A stretch of DNA of 64,000 nucleotides, taken from NCBI GenBank assembly GCA_030041215.1, contig JASHOH010000006.1, forward strand, positions 17,775-81,774, given 5' to 3'. The stretch is from Candidatus Sulfotelmatobacter sp. Lineage in GTDB: Bacteria > Acidobacteriota > Terriglobia > Terriglobales > Acidobacteriaceae. The position numbers and the translations under genes were made by a program. This document shows, in pieces, positions 20,179 through 35,915 of this stretch; the first letter of the stretch is position 1, and each line of letters begins with the position of its first letter. The notes under the pieces are model-generated. The model was given only the letters and a program-made list of their open reading frames with translations, was not told where the DNA came from and did no database searches.

Positions 20179-20886
20179 ATGGACGAGAAGAAATTTCGCC
20201 AGAACAGCCGCCGTGAATTGCTCAAACTGACGCCGGTACTGGCGCTGGGCGCATTCGCGATTCCAAACCTGCAAGAAGGATTGCTGAAAAAGGGATTGCG
20301 CTTCAGCGATTGGACTGCGGCGCGGCTGTTCCGGCCGCGTCATCTGGCGACTACATTCGATGATTCGGAAGTGACTCCGTTCGAGAAGTTCCCTCTGAAC
20401 ACTTACGACGTGGATGATCCGGGAGTGATTTTTGAAAACTGGACTTTGACCGTGAGTGGCGCGGTACAAAAGCCGGGTGACTATACGCTGGAGCAGATAC
20501 AAGCGCTGCCGCGCGTGCGGCAAAACACGCGGCATATCTGCGTCGAGGGCTGGGACGTCATCGGCCGCTTTGGTGGCGCGCGGCTTTCCGATTTTCTGGG
20601 TTTGATTGGCGCAGATCCTACGGCGCGCTTTATTACAGTGAACTGCGCCGACGATTATTACGAATCGCTGGACATGGCGACGGCGATGCATCAGCAGACG
20701 CTATTGTGTTACGAGATGTACGATCGTCCGCTCACGCGCGAGCACGGCGCGCCGCTGCGCCTGCAGATTCCGACAAAGATTGGCTACAAGCAGGCGAAAT
20801 ATTTGACGGACTTGAAGGTCACGCACGTGCTTGATCGGCTGGGATACTGGGAAGATCAGGGGTATTCGTGGTTCTACGGGCTGTAG
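20179..20886 (+). CDS. Tat-exported molybdopterin-dependent oxidoreductase (sulfite oxidase/MsrP-like)
   Basis: Twin-arginine SRRELLKLTPVLALG; RHICVEGWDVIGRFGGARLSDFL; MYDRPLTREHGAPLRLQIPTKIGYKQAKYL. Confidence 0.85.
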   Translation: MDEKKFRQNSRRELLKLTPVLALGAFAIPNLQEGLLKKGLRFSDWTAARLFRPRHLATTFDDSEVTPFEKFPLNTYDVDDPGVIFENWTLTVSGAVQKPGDYTLEQIQALPRVRQNTRHICVEGWDVIGRFGGARLSDFLGLIGADPTARFITVNCADDYYESLDMATAMHQQTLLCYEMYDRPLTREHGAPLRLQIPTKIGYKQAKYLTDLKVTHVLDRLGYWEDQGYSWFYGL

Positions 20887-20952
20887 AGGTGCGCGTCTGC
20901 GGAAATCAAGAAACTTAACCACGGAGGGCACGGGTTACACGGGGTAAAGCTG

Positions 20953-21651
20953 ATGAGTGGTGTAGTGGTTGAGATTACGCGGCAAAAAGGCAAAGACGAG
21001 CCAATCGTCGTCGGGCGCGGAGTGTATGAACACCCATTCATCGTGCGGTTGTGCCATTGGCTAAATACGATTGCTCTGTTCGTGATGGTAGGCAGCGGGC
21101 TTCAAATCTTTCGCGCGTTTCCCAGCTTTGGGGCGAAGATTCCGCAGAAGGATTTGCTGCACTGGCCGAAGCAGTTTGCCATTGGCGGATGGCTGGGCGG
21201 GGCTCTGCAATGGCATCTGACCTTCATGTGGATTTATATCGCGACCGGCGTGGTTTACATCGCGTATCAGATTTTTAGCGGGAATTATCGTCAAGTCTTG
21301 TTCACGCACCGTGACATTCCTGATGTGTGGCCGATGGTGAGGCATTACTTCTTTTTTGGTCCTAAGCCGCCGACGCGGGAAGCTTACAACGCGCTCCAAA
21401 AGCAGGCTTATACGACGGCGATTGTGCTGGGCATTCTGTCGGTAGCGACTGGATTTGCGGTGTGGAAACCGATTCAGTTTTCCTGGCTGGCGTGGATGAT
21501 GGGCGGCTTTCACTATGCCCGTATCTGGCACTTCGCTGTGATGTGGGCAATGGTGGCTTTTGTTTTAGGACATCTGGTCATGGTGATTCTGCACGGATGG
21601 AACAATTTTGTTTCCATGTTGACGGGGTGGAAGAAGGATCCAGAGTATTAG
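20953..21651 (+). CDS. Cytochrome b561/b-type haem membrane subunit
   Basis: Four TM segments with conserved His (HPFIVRLCHWLNTIALFVMVGSGLQIF; WHLTFMWIYIATGVVYI; ARIWHFAVMWAMVAFVLGHLVMV). Confidence 0.85.
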   Translation: MSGVVVEITRQKGKDEPIVVGRGVYEHPFIVRLCHWLNTIALFVMVGSGLQIFRAFPSFGAKIPQKDLLHWPKQFAIGGWLGGALQWHLTFMWIYIATGVVYIAYQIFSGNYRQVLFTHRDIPDVWPMVRHYFFFGPKPPTREAYNALQKQAYTTAIVLGILSVATGFAVWKPIQFSWLAWMMGGFHYARIWHFAVMWAMVAFVLGHLVMVILHGWNNFVSMLTGWKKDPEY

Positions 21652-21751
21652 ATCGGTTGACGACTTCAACTTCAAAATCTTAAATCGCAAACGCCGCTAA
21701 GAAAGGCCCTAAAGAGCGCAAAGCAAGAGCGCAAAGAAAAGCAGCCCGCGC

Positions 21752-22420
21752 ATGGAAAGCAAGGCATTGAACACTGCCATCGGTAATCCGGAGCAGAGTG
21801 CCGCCTCGCGTGAGCGGGAGTTGATCCTGGCCGTGCAAGGCGGCCAGCGGGAGTTGTTCTACGAACTGGTCCGGCCATATGAGCGGCGGGTTTACGCTGC
21901 GGCGCTGGCAATCCTCCGTAATGAACATGACGCCGAAGACGCCTCGCAGGAAGCCATGCTGAAGGCTCTGGCCAAGATCCGGCAGTTCCGTGCGGAGGCG
22001 CGCTTCAGCACCTGGCTCATCCAGATCACAGTCAACGAAGCTCTAATGCGCCGCAGAAGGGAGCGAACGGTGGTCATCGAAGGCATTGACGATCACGAGC
22101 CTGACGAAGGCGAGTATATGCCGCGCGATTTTGCCGACTGGCGCGAGATTCCCTCCGAAGCGCTGGAGCGCAAGGAAGTGCGCCAGCATCTGGCGAAGGC
22201 GCTGGCCTCGCTCGACAGGAAATATCGCGAGGTCTTTGTGCTGCGCGACATGGAGCACCTCAACATTCAGGAAACGGCGGAGGCGCTGGGAATTTCTATC
22301 GCCTCGGTGAAGACGCGGCTGCTGCGGGCGCGGCTGATGCTGCGCGATCTGCTGGCCGCTGGATGGGAGCAGGGCTGGTTCAGCCGGCTTCCATTCGAGA
22401 AGGGGACCAAGCCATGGTAG
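21752..22420 (+). CDS. RNA polymerase sigma factor, ECF-type
   Basis: Region 2 EHDAEDASQEAMLKALAKIRQFRAEARFSTWLIQI; region 4 YREVFVLRDMEHLNIQETAEALGISIASVKTRLLRARLMLRDLL. Confidence 0.92.
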   Translation: MESKALNTAIGNPEQSAASRERELILAVQGGQRELFYELVRPYERRVYAAALAILRNEHDAEDASQEAMLKALAKIRQFRAEARFSTWLIQITVNEALMRRRRERTVVIEGIDDHEPDEGEYMPRDFADWREIPSEALERKEVRQHLAKALASLDRKYREVFVLRDMEHLNIQETAEALGISIASVKTRLLRARLMLRDLLAAGWEQGWFSRLPFEKGTKPW

Positions 22421-23073
22421 ACCAGAAAATGTCGAGCTGCGAAGAAGTCTGGCGCGAGATTTCGAATTACATCGACGAAGACGTAGAGACTGGCCTGCGC
22501 GCGGAGATGGACGATCATTTGAAGATGTGCCCGCGTTGCGCTTCGGTACTGGCGGGAATGCAAAATGTAGTGAAGCTGTACGGCGATGAGCGCATGCTGG
22601 AGGTGCCGGCGGGATTCAGCGTTCGTTTGGAAAAACGGATCGAGCGAGGACTAGCGACAGATCTTCGCGAGCGTCGGCAGTGGTGGTCGAGTTGGATGGC
22701 CTGGCTGATACCGGTGGCGGCTGTGTTGTTGATTGCCGGAGGCATATGGCTGGCCAATCCGTCGGGATTCAGAAATCCGTTGAGATCGCAACATGCGGAG
22801 CCGGCGAAGAATATTCCTCCTGATCTTCAGGTCGTAGTTTCGGACGGGGAGAAGCTGTTTCATCTGCCGGGATGCAAATTCATCAAGGACCCGAATTCAG
22901 AGCGCACGATGACCGCCAAAGAAGCGATCCAGGAGGGCTATGCGCCGTGCACGCGGTGTCTGCGGCAGTATTTGAAGACTGGATTGATCAGTCCGCATGG
23001 GCAGGCCGGCGATAAGGACGACGAAGCGGAAGAAGAACAAGAACAGCCGATCGTCGGAGCGGCGGTGCAGTAG
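22414..23073 (+). CDS. Membrane anti-sigma factor with N-terminal zinc finger (ZAS) and C-terminal Cys/His motif
   Basis: MSSCEEVWREISNYID...DHLKMCPRC; one TM (WMAWLIPVAAVLLIAGGIWLA); FHLPGCKFIKD...GYAPCTRCL; overlaps sigma gene stop. Confidence 0.85.
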   Translation: MVDQKMSSCEEVWREISNYIDEDVETGLRAEMDDHLKMCPRCASVLAGMQNVVKLYGDERMLEVPAGFSVRLEKRIERGLATDLRERRQWWSSWMAWLIPVAAVLLIAGGIWLANPSGFRNPLRSQHAEPAKNIPPDLQVVVSDGEKLFHLPGCKFIKDPNSERTMTAKEAIQEGYAPCTRCLRQYLKTGLISPHGQAGDKDDEAEEEQEQPIVGAAVQ

Positions 23074-25258: not shown

Positions 25259-25432
25259 GAGCGCTCTCCTTCCGCCGAACAACGAACTGACCTCATTAAC
25301 GGTCACAGGTTGCCACTTATACCTCAGCATACGCTGTTTACGATTTGTGTCTGTGACACATCTGCTACATTGTTGACTGCCTTCGTTGACTTCCCCTTCG
25401 CAACGCTCCTACCATTGCACTCGGAATCCGGC

Positions 25433-28114
25433 ATGATCGGCCAAACCATCTCGCACTATCGCATCATCGAGAAGCTCGGTGGCGGGGGCATGGGAGTCGT
25501 TTACAAGGCCGAGGACGTGAGACTCGGGCGCTTTGTCGCTCTCAAGTTCCTGCCTCACGACGTAGCAAGTGATCCGCAGGCGCTAAGCCGGTTCCAGCGC
25601 GAGGCCAAGGCCGCCTCGGCGCTGAACCATCCCAACATCTGCACGATTTACGAGATTGACGATCAGCACGAGCAGGCGTTCATCGCGATGGAGTTTCTGG
25701 ATGGCCTGACGTTGAAGAACAGGATCGCTGGCAGACCATTGGAGATGGAGACATTATTGTCGCTTGGAGTTGAAATCGCCGATGCGCTGGACGCTGCCCA
25801 CGCCGCTGGCATCGTGCATCGGGACATCAAGCCTGCCAACATCTTCATCACAAAACGTGGGCACGCCAAGATTTTGGATTTTGGATTGGCAAAGGTGACT
25901 GCCCCAGGCAAGTGGGAATCGGCGGGCGCCAGCTCCGCGCCGACCATTACTCTGGAAGAACATCTGACGAGTCCCGGTCAAGCGATTGGAACCATCGCGT
26001 ACATGTCGCCAGAGCAAGTCCGCGCCAGGGAGCTCGACTCCCGCACTGACCTGTTTTCGTTTGGCGCCGTCCTTTACGAGATGGCGACCGGATCACTGCC
26101 CTTCCGAGGTGAGAGTTCCGGAGTGATCTTCAAGGCCATTCTGGATGCGAGCCCGACCGCGCCGGTGCGGCTGAATCCGGATCTTCCGCCGAAGCTCGAA
26201 GACATAATCAACAAATGCCTGGAGAAAGACCGCGATCTGCGATACCAGCATGCTTCCGAAATCCGCGCGGATTTGCAGCGGCTCAAGCGTGACACGGAAT
26301 CGAAGAGCGCCGTAAGTTCGGCTGCCGGGACCACTTCAGCGGCGCAGAAGAGAAAGATCTGGCTGGCTGCCTGGCCCAGCCCCACAGTACTGACACTTGT
26401 GAGCCTGGCGCTCGTTCTGATTGGGATGGGCGTTTATGTCTCGCTGGGCCGAAAAAAAACTTTCACCCCCTTCCAGACGATGAACATCGAGCGGCTCACG
26501 ACCAGCGGGATAGCCCGAAGAGTCGCCCTCTCGCCGGATGGCAACTATGTAGCCTATGTTACTGGTAATGCGGGAAAGCAGAGCCTTTGGATGCGACAGA
26601 CCGTCACCCGCAGCGATATCCAGATTATTCTCCCGAGCGAGGAGCATTATGGTGGGCTCACCTTCTCACCGGATGGAAACTACGTTTTCTACGTCCGAAG
26701 AGCAACTGCCTGGGGGTCGGGTACGCTGTATCAAATTCCCACTTTAGGCGGTGAGTCACGCAAGGTGCTAGATCACGTCGAGTCTCCGGTCGCGTTCTCC
26801 CCGGATGGCAAGCGCCTAGCCTTCATAAGAGATAACCCCGGGTCAGAGACTGCTTTGATGGTGGCGGAAGCCGATGGTAGTGGCGAGCTGCAACTCTCCG
26901 CACGGAAAGTTCCTGATCCCTTCAGTGAAGCAGGCATGTCCTGGTCCCATGACGGCAAGAGCATCGCCATCGGGGCGTATTCTGGCGGTGAGTGTTACGT
27001 AATGACCATTCAGATAGCAGACGGGTCTGTGAAACGCGTCGGTTCTCAAGGGTGGCGTCATGTCTTGAGGGTAGCCTGGCTGGCGGATTCGAGCGGGTTA
27101 GTTTTCGGGGCCCAAGATTCGGCGAACGGGCCACTTCAACTCTGGGAGCTTTCCTACCCTGATGGCCGGGCAGGAAGGGTTACCAATGATTTAGACGATT
27201 ACGTCGATCTGGATATGACAGCAGATTCGCGCGCGCTGGCGACCGTTCTGCGCGAGGTTCGCTCAAACCTCTGGCTTGCTCCCGGTGGTGCGCCCGGTCA
27301 GTCTGCCCAGATCAGTTCTAGCGTCGCCACACAGGAGGGCCTCTTCGGTCTCACGTGGACGGCGGAGGGGCGCCTTGCCTATGCTTCGCTGGCGAGCGGC
27401 CGCCGTGAGCTCTGGGTCATGGATACCGACGGCGGTTACCCGCGGCAGTTGACCTCCGCTGCCGACCTCCAGTTTTTCTCTTCGCCTTCATCTTGCCCCG
27501 ACGCGAGCATCTTGTTTGCATCCGGCGTCTACGGCGCCGCGAACATTTGGCGGATCGATTTGGATGGCGGTAACCGGAGACAGTTAACGCACGAAGGCAC
27601 AAATGGTGTCCCTTCTTGTTCGCCGGACGGAAAATGGGTGGTTTTCAACTCTTCGCGCGGGGGAGATTACTCGCTGTGGAGAGTTCCTGTCCAGGGCGGT
27701 AGCCCAGAGCAACTCACCGATTACGCTTCAGCTTTTCCCTCCGTTTCGCCCGACGGGAAGTGGATTGCCTTCGATGACTACCGACTTCCGCAGTCGCAGC
27801 GGATCGGGGTGATTCCTTTCGCAGGCGGCCAGCCTGTTCGGACCTTCGACTATTTGCCCTCCGGCGCGCCGGGCTACCCCATAATCCATTGGACCCAGGA
27901 CAGCCGTTACCTTACCTATATTCGAGACAAGCAAGGGGTCTCCAATATCTGGGCGCAGCCGCTCGACGGCAGCTCACCCAAACAGCTCACCAATTTCCCC
28001 GTCGACGTTATCTACAACTTTGCCTGGTCGCCGGACGGCCGACAACTCGCACTTGCGCGTGGCTCTCAGACCAGCGATGTAGTCCTGATCCGCAGCGTGG
28101 TCACCAATCAATAG
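25433..28114 (+). CDS. Serine/threonine protein kinase with C-terminal TolB/WD40-like propeller
   Basis: [49 protein letters not shown]; repeated FSPDGK...-type blades after a TM. Confidence 0.93.
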
Positions 28115-28158: not shown

Positions 28159-29508
28159 TCACCGCCCTACAATAAGGTCGCTGGGACCGGGAAGATTGAT
28201 CCGGCATATATCGGTGAAACCCGCATCTTTCATCCACTGCGTATATTCGACTTCGCTATAGTCGGCGCCGCTGTCGGTGCTGACGAGCATGTTCAGTGAG
28301 AATAGTGCCGCGTGAAGAGGTCCGGTTTTATCGCGATTGAGGATGAAATCCTGCACGACGAGGCGGCCCTTTAGCGCAAGCGCCTGCCGGGCGCGCCGGA
28401 AGAGTTCTCGGTTCTCCTCCTCGGAAAACATGTGGCAGATGGCGTTCAGCATGACGATGTCATAGCCGGAGCCCAGATCGTCAGTGAGCATATCGCCGGC
28501 GCGTACCTTGACTTGCGCGGAAACACCAGCTTGCTTCACGTATTCGGTGGTAAGCGGCACGACCTCTGACACGTCAAGTATGTCGCAGTGAACATCGGAA
28601 GAAGCTCTGGCGAAGGCGATGGAGTAAGCGCCAGATCCTCCCCCGAGATCGAGGATGCGATGCACTCCGGCCGTACCCAGGGCCTTCACCACAGACGGGG
28701 CGCGCTCTTTGGCATGGCGATCCATGGCGGCAATGAAGTCGGTTGTCCATTCGGGAGTCTCGTCGCGACCGATCGGAATGCGGGTACCGCTGCGCACCGA
28801 GTCGGTCAGCGTGCTCCAGCGATGCCAAATGTTGGCTATATGGAGCAGACCGTTGCGGTGGTTGTCTTTGGAACCCTGCACAAAGAAGCGCGATGACGCG
28901 GGAGTATTTCTGTAAGTATCGCCACTCTTGCTGAGCAGTCCGAGTGCCACGAGCGCGTTGAGCAGCATGCCAACGGCGCGGGCATTGGCGTGGATCCTCG
29001 TCCCAGCCTGCTCGGCAGTCGCCCCGTCACCGACGGCGGTAAAAATGTCGAGCTCTAGCGCGGTGAGAATGCAGCGGCTCGGCATGTAGCCGCGGATCAT
29101 CTGATCGAGATGGTCGGGCAGAGTTCCTGCTTTGTCGCGGGCAGTCATTGCGGCGCGGAATTTTTCCCTGTGCTCCACCGCCATAGCTTTCATCGCAGAC
29201 GCGTCATTCCAAGCAAGGCGACCGACCGCCCTCCCCTGGCGCAGATGTGCGTCGACAATCTCACCTACATCCGACGCCTGGACACGCCGGTACCACACCC
29301 CTGCCGGATAAACCACCATCACGGGACCTTCATCGCAAAGCCCCATGCAGCCGCAGGTGGTGAGTTGGCAGTCGCCATCGAGGCCGCCTGCCTGTATCTG
29401 TCGATCGAGAGCATCGAGTACCGCGAATGAACCGCTGGCCGGGCACGACACAACACCTTCTGGTTTTTGTTGCGTACAAACGAAAAGATGAAAGCGAAAT
29501 GGTTCCAT
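28159..29508 (-). CDS. Thioredoxin-like [2Fe-2S] ferredoxin domain fused to SAM-dependent O-methyltransferase (Methyltransf_2-like)
   Basis: FHLFVCTQQKPEGVVSCPASGS...CQLTTCGCMGLCDEGPVMVVYPAGVWY; then HRILDLGGGSGAYSIAFARASSDVHCDILDVSEVV. Confidence 0.85.
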   Translation of the reverse strand: MEPFRFHLFVCTQQKPEGVVSCPASGSFAVLDALDRQIQAGGLDGDCQLTTCGCMGLCDEGPVMVVYPAGVWYRRVQASDVGEIVDAHLRQGRAVGRLAWNDASAMKAMAVEHREKFRAAMTARDKAGTLPDHLDQMIRGYMPSRCILTALELDIFTAVGDGATAEQAGTRIHANARAVGMLLNALVALGLLSKSGDTYRNTPASSRFFVQGSKDNHRNGLLHIANIWHRWSTLTDSVRSGTRIPIGRDETPEWTTDFIAAMDRHAKERAPSVVKALGTAGVHRILDLGGGSGAYSIAFARASSDVHCDILDVSEVVPLTTEYVKQAGVSAQVKVRAGDMLTDDLGSGYDIVMLNAICHMFSEEENRELFRRARQALALKGRLVVQDFILNRDKTGPLHAALFSLNMLVSTDSGADYSEVEYTQWMKDAGFTDICRINLPGPSDLIVGR

Positions 29509-29735
29509 GAATGCCTCCCAACAACAGTCCATGTTAGTCCTTTATTTCGGTCTGACAGAAGGCCCGTTGAAAGGCGAAACGGCGGGAGAGAACGATAGCC
29601 CTCACATGGGAAATGGGGTCGGGACACGTTTACACTCAGAATCCATCAAGGCCAGTCTTTGACTTGCTCCTGAAAAAAATTCGGCGCGGACCCGTGGCCC
29701 GCGCCCTGGCAATTCGTGCAGATCGACTCGGACGG

Positions 29736-29978
29736 CTAGTTCTGCTTCATCGTATTGTCTTTCTTGCTGTCGTCCTTCATGGTGTTGTCTTTCTTTGTTG
29801 TGTCTTTCTTCGCGGCCTTGGTCTTCTTGGCTGACTTGGCGGCGCTCTTCTTCGTTGAAGTGTCTTTTTTCGTCGTGTCTTGCTTGCTGGTGTCTTGCTT
29901 CATTGAATCCTGGCCGAAGGTGGGCAGCGAAGCCGCGAGCAAACAGGCAAGCATCAGACTCCCGAAAATCTTCTTCAT
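29736..29978 (-). CDS. Small secreted Lys/Asp/Thr-rich low-complexity protein
   Basis: Signal peptide MKKIFGSLMLACLLAASLPTFGQ followed by repeated (K)xDTTKKD/TKKSAAKSAKK units. Confidence 0.6.
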   Translation of the reverse strand: MKKIFGSLMLACLLAASLPTFGQDSMKQDTSKQDTTKKDTSTKKSAAKSAKKTKAAKKDTTKKDNTMKDDSKKDNTMKQN

Positions 29979-30214
29979 GTTGTCTCCTTGCAATAGGTGA
30001 GTTGGGTCGTCCGGCAGGTCTGCACCTGCAGACTAACGATGGAGATGAGCCGGGCGAAAGAAAGTTACAACATTGGGGCGGAAGGAATCAACCTTAATGG
30101 CTCTGCGTTGCCGGATGACAAACTGAGGAAAGCGCGCAAAGAAATCGCGGACGCCCGCGCGACAACCGGCGAGTATCTTTCGACTTCGTTCGGGGCAGCC
30201 CACGGCGCACACAT

Positions 30215-34205: not shown

Positions 34206-35915
34206 ATGAAAACGGACAGATTCCTATTGGCGGGAACTATGCTGGCGTTTGCGCTGGCGTCGACGCTGGGAACGGCTGCTCAAACGAATGCGGTCGGCAC
34301 GGGGAAAATCAAGCATGTTCTATTGTTGAGCATCGATGGCATGCACGCGGTCGATTTTTATAACTGTTCACGCGGACTTGCCGGTGTGAACGGCGGAAAC
34401 CCGTATTGTCCGAATATGGCAACGCTGAGCCAGACGGCAATCAACTACGTGAATACGGAGTCTTCGAAGCCATCGGACTCCTTTCCAGGAATGGCGGCGC
34501 TGGCTTCTGGCGGCACGCCGAAAACGACCGGACTTTATTACGACGTCGCCTATGATCGCTCGCTTGACCCACCCGCGCAAACAACGGGCACAGGCTTGGC
34601 GGGTGGTCCATGCAAAGCTTATGCGCCACCGGCCGGAACAACTACAGATTTCGACCAAGGTATCGATTACAACGATAACTTGCTGAACGGCGGTGCACCG
34701 GGCGCGTCACTGACCGAAGGAGGAATCGCTTCCATCGACCCGCAACATTTAGAACGTGACCCACTCAACGGGTGCGCGCCGGTCTACCCGTGGAATTTCA
34801 TTCGCGTCAATACGGCTTTTGGCGTGATTCGTGCGACCGGCGGATACACGGCCTGGATCGACAAGCATCCTTCGTATTCGTTCGTAGGCGGCCCCGGCGG
34901 TAACGGACTCGACGATTATTATTCGCCAGAAGTGGACTCAATGGTGGTGCCGCTGCCGGGGGTGAAAACCTTGGATGGCGCTTCGTGCGATCCGATTCGC
35001 GACCCGCTCGGCACATCTGCGTGAAACGCCAGCTTTAAGAATATCCAATGCTACGATGCGATCAAAGTGTATGGCCTGTTGAATCAGATTGCAGGTAAAA
35101 CACATTCCGGAGCGCCCGCGAAGGTTCCAGCAATTTTCGGCATGAACTTTCAATCCGTATACGTTGGACAATCGGTCTACGAAGCGGGCGTGGGCGGGGG
35201 TGGGTACCAAGACGCTGCGGCCACTCCCAGTGCAGAACTGCTGGGTGAAATCGAATACGTTGATACCTGCATCGGCAACATCGTCGCTGCCCTCCAGACC
35301 GCAGGTCTTTACAATGACACACTGGTCATAATCACGGCCAAGCACGGGGAGTCGCCAATCGATCCGACCCGCTATATCGCCGATGGAACCGACACGCCAG
35401 CGACGCTGTTGGGCGATCTCATTCCTTATTCCGAATCACCATTGAATTCTACGGGTATCGGGGCGACAGAAGACGATGTCTCGGTACTTTGGTTGAAAAA
35501 AGGCGTGGACGTAAAGACGGCCGTCGCAATCCTCGAAAGCGATGCGACCGAAATCGGCATGGGCGAGATTTTCTATGGCCCAACTGTCGCGTTGAACTAT
35601 AACGTGGGCGGTTGGGAGAGCGGCGACGATCCTCGCACGCCAGACATCATTGTCACGCCGAATGTCGGTGTCACGTACTCAAGCAGCACTGCAATGATCG
35701 GCGACCACGGCGGATTCACCCATGACGACACGAACGTAATCTTGCTGGTGGCAAATTCCAGCTTCACGGCGCAGACCGTCGCGACTGCTTCGACAACCCG
35801 GCAGGTAGCTCCAACAATGGTGCAAGTGTTGGGTTTGAATCCCGCGCTGCTGGATGCAGTACAACAGGAAGGCACGCAGGTGTTGGCCGAGGTTGCCGCA
35901 CAGCTGGCAAAGTAG
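34206..35915 (+). pseudogene. Secreted type I phosphodiesterase/nucleotide pyrophosphatase-like protein interrupted by in-frame TGA at 35022-35024
   Basis: ORFs 34206-35024 and 35067-35915 are in the same frame; HVLLLSIDGMHAVDFYNC...GTSA*NASFKNIQCYDAIKVYGLLNQIAGKTHSG...VIITAKHGESPID. Confidence 0.8.

Follow-up and report, generated by a model that had tools for sequence, protein, structure and literature searches.

The gene considered here raises the question of why an iron-sulfur electron carrier should share a polypeptide with an enzyme that transfers methyl groups. No electrons are required for SN2 methyl transfer from SAM, and a conserved ferredoxin domain with a complete set of cluster ligands must therefore add something to it, be it reduction of the acceptor, redox control or docking. 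The gene lies on the reverse strand of the window, by which we mean the whole 64,000-nucleotide stretch of a Candidatus Sulfotelmatobacter contig that was analyzed, and the initial annotation had described its product as a [2Fe-2S] thioredoxin-like ferredoxin in cis with a complete, acetylserotonin-type O-methyltransferase.

The reverse strand of positions 28159–29508 translates into 449 residues uninterrupted by stops, with the stop codon at 28159–28161. We consider the ATG at 29508 to be the right start because a Shine-Dalgarno-like GGGAGG (29514–29519, reverse strand) is found five bases upstream and because nearly all fusion homologs begin with MEPF or a close variant. Pfam profiles match along the protein in the order PF01257 (2Fe-2S_thioredx), PF08100 (O-MT dimerization) and PF00891 (Methyltransf_2), and the segments that follow are all encoded on the reverse strand. 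Residues 1–99 (29212–29508) form the thioredoxin-like [2Fe-2S] ferredoxin domain, which the structural model also shows; PF01257 scores just above its cut-off here (26.1 bits against 24.8, best stretch 20–87), and the Aquifex ferredoxin 1f37 matches residues 7–99 in a PDB sequence search (E=1e-18). The linker, residues 100–130 (29119–29211), is occupied by one long predicted helix, and stand-alone homologs of the ferredoxin have it too, aligning to residues 1–127. Next come the dimerization/winged-helix domain at residues 131–230 (28819–29118; PF08100, 48.3 bits against a cut-off of 25.6, E=9e-13) and the SAM-binding catalytic domain at residues 231–449 (28162–28818; PF00891, 97.5 bits against 22.3, E=9e-28), the latter with a DLGGGSG motif near 287; solved COMT-type O-methyltransferases match residues 131–448 with E-values down to 8e-33. 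The protein scored 74 bits against NCBIfam NF041612, an equivalog model for clostridial-type 2Fe-2S ferredoxins with a cut-off of 150. These matches, together with full-length homologs, confirm that one chain joins a thioredoxin-like ferredoxin, by way of a helical linker, to a complete COMT-type methyltransferase; the architecture claimed at the outset is borne out, as are the intact winged-helix and SAM-binding portions and the ferredoxin type, which is that of Shethna protein I and not FeSII.

A single-chain AF2 model of the protein was confident (pLDDT 89.3, pTM 0.78) and shows the ferredoxin, with strands and helices at residues 6–11, 27–40, 47–52, 64–67, 71–73 and 78–90, then a long helix at 103–127 that leads straight into the dimerization helices, and the methyltransferase. 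In a structure search the modeled fold matched 2r3s, RedM, PigF, ASMT and 5i2h. PDB entry 22ow (461 residues, with an N-terminal extension of similar size) was considered as a possible solved fusion and rejected, as its N-terminal part went unmatched both when the whole protein and when the ferredoxin alone served as query.

Sequence searches for the architecture, a check that the initial annotation had suggested, showed that the fusion occurs at full length in 55 Acidobacteriota proteins, and one more fusion was found in another phylum. The 55 distinct Acidobacteriota sequences, the window's protein included, make up our aligned set (homologs 46–83% identical) and come from independent assemblies in several classes of the phylum; given this full-length recurrence, the fusion is neither a chance product nor a chimera. 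In searches that used one genome per species, the genus itself had full-length fusions in 12 of the 37 genomes searched (counting one copy truncated at a contig end); a sample of 399 genomes from the class gave 22 genomes with the fusion, and other classes of the phylum gave another four. When 84,980 species were scanned with a pattern, which reaches close relatives only, 25 fusion loci were returned, all in Acidobacteriota. One of 247 genomes of one different phylum carries the fusion, with 44% identity over residues 1–411 and the assembly masked beyond; this homolog (L145/L155, G734:C1:1793890-1795128), from the phylum of a deltaproteobacterial MAG, adjoins enoate-reductase-like flavoproteins and an acyl-CoA ligase. 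No PLSDB plasmid carries the fusion, as 0 of 162 matching records cover 80% of it. Duplicate copies were also observed: one genome (G001) has two intact fusions on contigs C74 and C185, 80% and 60% identical to the query, and another (G023) has copies on C108 and C49, the second of which matches only residues 1–187, contains stops and looks decayed.

In a phylogeny of the methyltransferase part, all 55 fusions fall into one clade of 78 rows (support 100/99). Nested inside this clade are 23 ferredoxin-less rows; these include several duplicates, where a gene was retrieved twice, and a fusion truncated at a contig end (L012). Mapping the presence or absence of the fusion onto the tree requires six changes, of which well-supported branches impose four; this suggests a single early fusion followed by several losses, other orders of events being possible. 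Close methyltransferase relatives (42–55% identity) lack the ferredoxin domain, and the genomes that encode unfused methyltransferases have no close stand-alone copy of this ferredoxin. Within the fusions, mean pairwise distances are nearly equal for the ferredoxin and the methyltransferase (0.365 versus 0.376) and are correlated over 1485 pairs (r=0.89), indicating that both domains have traveled together and that both are under selection. Conservation is lowest in the linker (0.65 versus 0.72–0.74), where one of 31 residues is fully conserved. Stand-alone ferredoxins of the MEPFRYH type occur in three genomes of distant Acidobacteriota (L110, L111 and L112) and, in a tree built from few columns, branch beside one fusion subclade; most simply, they may be split-offs or relatives of the donor.

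Conservation of the cluster cysteines had been named in the initial annotation as a check on the ferredoxin assignment, and the cysteines are indeed retained. Ligand positions were numbered 11, 22, 54 and 58 by family alignment through 1f37; in Shethna protein I the ligands are Cys11, Cys24, Cys56 and Cys60 (PMC8561814). Cys11 (29476–29478, reverse strand), which aligns with Cys11 of Shethna protein I, Cys22 (29443–29445, reverse strand) and Cys58 (29335–29337, reverse strand) are each present in 55/55 fusions. The third ligand falls within Cys52-Gly-Cys54 (29347–29355, reverse strand), where residue 54 is canonical and 52 the alternative: Cys52 is found in 49 of 55 sequences and Cys54 in 39, the other 16 having Ser at position 54, and in no sequence are both cysteines absent. 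In one subclade, where Ser takes the place of Cys54, the third ligand appears to have shifted by two residues, with Cys52 as its probable substitute; the alternation, with at least one of the two cysteines always kept, is a possible natural case of iron-sulfur ligand migration. Among the stand-alone ferredoxins, L111 and L112 have no cysteine at either 52 or 54 and have a Cys21-Cys22 pair. The hallmark Y67-P68-x-G70-x-W72-Y73 is invariant across the fusions, as are H7, Q13 and K15; the dimer contacts of Shethna protein I include His7 and Tyr69 (PMC8561814), and their equivalents H7 and Y67 are kept in 55/55 sequences. On this pattern of conservation, we infer that the domain binds a [2Fe-2S] cluster through Cys11, Cys22, Cys54 (or Cys52) and Cys58.

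The catalytic-site residues of the methyltransferase were examined through an alignment with PigF, over which METHYLTRANSFERASE stands as the heading. In the glycine-rich SAM motif DLGGGSG and at the acidic adenine/ribose contacts, D287, G289, G291 and D312 are conserved in 55/55 sequences and D339, which aligns with the adenine-binding Asp226 of PigF, in 51/55; N406 aligns with PigF Asn294. His359 (28432–28434, reverse strand), a histidine of the catalytic-base type that aligns with PigF His247, is likewise present in 55/55, and its acidic partner Asp387 (28348–28350, reverse strand), at the position of PigF Glu275, is Asp in 54 sequences and Glu in one. The third member of the classical COMT triad (Glu329), traced through PigF, is not conserved: at the Glu329/Glu304 position the window's protein has Asp, and 48 of 55 fusions have Ser. 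In PigF, His247 is essential and neither Glu275 nor Glu304 is (PMC8895007). The invariance of His359 makes O-methylation by the fusion protein plausible; it favors this activity without proving it, because several N-, C- or S-methylating relatives lack an equivalent of His359, as does at least one O-methyltransferase, DnrK (PMC10784701); DsyB lacks it too. Our best reading is of an O-methyltransferase that would be homodimeric and whose acceptor would be small and probably aromatic or quinol-like. The designation "acetylserotonin-type" holds only at the level of the COMT-type superfamily: human ASMT (4a6d) shares the superfamily fold and domain order, yet it is ~25% identical over the fold match and lacks a ferredoxin, no ASMT-level NCBIfam model was among the matches listed, and nothing points to acetylserotonin or supports an indole substrate for the fusion.

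Other characterized systems resemble the fusion in part. Shethna protein I and 1f37 (PF01257) share the fold, the four cysteine positions, the residues equivalent to H7 and Y67 of the dimer contacts and the VYPxGVWY hallmark; they are stand-alone proteins, however, whereas in the fusion a methyltransferase follows and one subclade has exchanged Cys54 for Ser. HydB/NuoF-type subunits (7q4v, 7t2r) carry the same ferredoxin domain at the N-terminus of a larger hydrogenase or NADH-dehydrogenase enzyme, but these are flavin/NAD oxidoreductases, while the methyltransferase needs no net electrons. PigF of the prodigiosin pathway (7clf) has the same COMT-type fold, histidine (247/359), acidic residue (Glu275/Asp387) and asparagine (294/406) at ~27% identity; it lacks a ferredoxin, and its essential Asp248 corresponds to Met360 in the fusion. 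The DsyB/MTHB S-methyltransferases (7wdw, 7wdq) gave the strongest hit when the methyltransferase part was searched by sequence against the PDB (E=8e-33), although they have no catalytic histidine at the equivalent position and S-methylate an aliphatic thioether.

Genomic context gave no indication of a partner. A protein kinase/beta-propeller gene (25310–28114) converges on the fusion gene. Upstream of the fusion, a small reverse-strand frame at 29736–29993 resembles a secreted protein, with a signal-peptide-like start and Lys/Thr/Asp repeats (KQDTSKQDTTKKDTS). A consensus scan placed a strong terminator-like hairpin (29683–29705, reverse strand; 10 pairs, 9 of them G-C, then a T run) between this frame and the fusion gene, for which reason the latter is probably transcribed alone as a separate unit. 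The initial annotation had looked to the neighborhood for a substrate pathway, and none is indicated, since no family of genes adjoins the fusion at more than 3 of 44 loci. We also considered a Rosetta-stone arrangement, in which an unfused ferredoxin and methyltransferase would be neighbors, and discarded it, as no such ferredoxin lies within ~5 kb of the unfused methyltransferases. No Rfam match to a riboswitch or other RNA was found in the window. The host genome has four other PF01257 matches, one of them below the cut-off; one is a frame of NuoE length, and the other three lie in a cluster on contig C152. Judging by profile coverage and frame size, these look like respiratory or hydrogenase-type subunits.

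One explanation for these results, which we favor tentatively and at somewhat less than an even chance, is that the protein is a single-polypeptide redox methyltransferase in which the ferredoxin acts in cis, most likely so that the acceptor stays in, or is brought to, its reduced form. In this scenario the C-terminal two thirds would work as a SAM-dependent, homodimeric COMT-type O-methyltransferase with His359 as base and a small, probably aromatic or quinol-like acceptor, while the N-terminal ferredoxin would bind one [2Fe-2S] cluster and dimerize as Shethna protein I does. The ferredoxin would receive electrons from a cellular donor and serve the methyltransferase in cis as a one-electron relay, so that the acceptor is kept or made reduced, for example from quinone to hydroquinone, freeing a hydroxyl for methylation. 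Both the delivery of electrons to the acceptor and the identity of that acceptor are proposals only. We favor acceptor reduction because it explains the conserved cluster ligands together with the aromatic hallmark surface, and the host has no other PF01257 match outside the seeming respiratory or hydrogenase-type subunits; a stricter version, in which a quinone-like acceptor is reduced in place by the ferredoxin and the resulting hydroxyl is trapped as a methyl ether, we regard as unlikely. Weighing against a redox methyltransferase are the lack of any linked electron donor, substrate or operon partner across the 44 loci, the close relatives that manage with neither the ferredoxin domain nor a close stand-alone copy, the patchy occurrence within the genus (12 of 37 genomes) and the Asp or, in most fusions, Ser at the Glu329/Glu304 position.

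One may postulate alternatively that no electrons reach the substrate and that the oxidation state of the cluster, or its loss under O2 or NO, alters the dimer or the linker helix and thereby switches the methyltransferase on or off. This is a doubtful but serious contender: in the model, the passage of helix 103–127 into the dimerization helices would offer a natural route for conformational coupling, the residues at the ferredoxin dimer contacts are conserved, and COMT-type enzymes such as PigF alternate between an open and a closed form (PMC8895007); the low conservation of the linker, however, is unexpected in an allosteric lever, and no regulatory context is conserved in the 44 loci. The ferredoxin might instead tether the enzyme to a redox partner, such as a NuoF/HydB-like flavoprotein, or steady the dimer, electron transfer being unrelated to methylation. 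The precedent of thioredoxin-like ferredoxin domains built into HydB/NuoF-type subunits (7q4v, 7t2r), the existence of ferredoxin-less relatives and the invariant YPxGxWY surface, which could be a docking patch, are consistent with this; but a docking module would have no need of a third-ligand cysteine that is kept in 55/55 sequences while shifting between 52 and 54, and we consider the idea rather improbable. RdmB needs an added reductant, and a similar chemistry would give the fused ferredoxin a job as electron source if the methyltransferase fold carried out hydroxylation or decarboxylation instead of, or besides, methylation. Proteins of the RdmB/DnrK type are indeed among the sequence and structural neighbors, yet D287, G289, G291 and His359 are kept in 55/55 fusions and the PDB sequence search places the methyltransferase nearer PigF, 2r3s and DsyB than RdmB, making this a distant prospect. 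That both parts are also found alone in related genomes might recall an artefact of gene prediction or assembly, or a neutral, meaningless fusion; this reading, which we find scarcely credible, is mainly refuted by 55 independent full-length frames in one clade, with matched rates and retained ligand and catalytic residues.

The ferredoxin–COMT fusion is an uncharacterized architecture made from two known families, and no paper on such a fusion was found in the open-access literature. A conserved iron-sulfur carrier that is fused to an ordinary O-methyltransferase and retains all its ligands in several classes of a phylum dominant in soil points to a coupled redox step or to redox control, and either, if true, would be a clear and testable addition to the enzymology of COMT-type proteins. 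It would also assign a function to ferredoxins of the Shethna protein I type, a family for which, to our knowledge, few functions are known.

Elsewhere in the window, forward-strand open reading frames at 34206–35024 and 35067–35915 lie in the same frame and together (34206–35915) resemble a single phosphodiesterase-type protein interrupted by an in-frame stop, possibly a pseudogene or a sequencing error. In the forward-strand region 20179–23073, genes for a molybdopterin oxidoreductase and a cytochrome b561 precede one for an ECF sigma factor, which overlaps a zinc-finger anti-sigma-like gene; the region looks like a regulated periplasmic redox unit.
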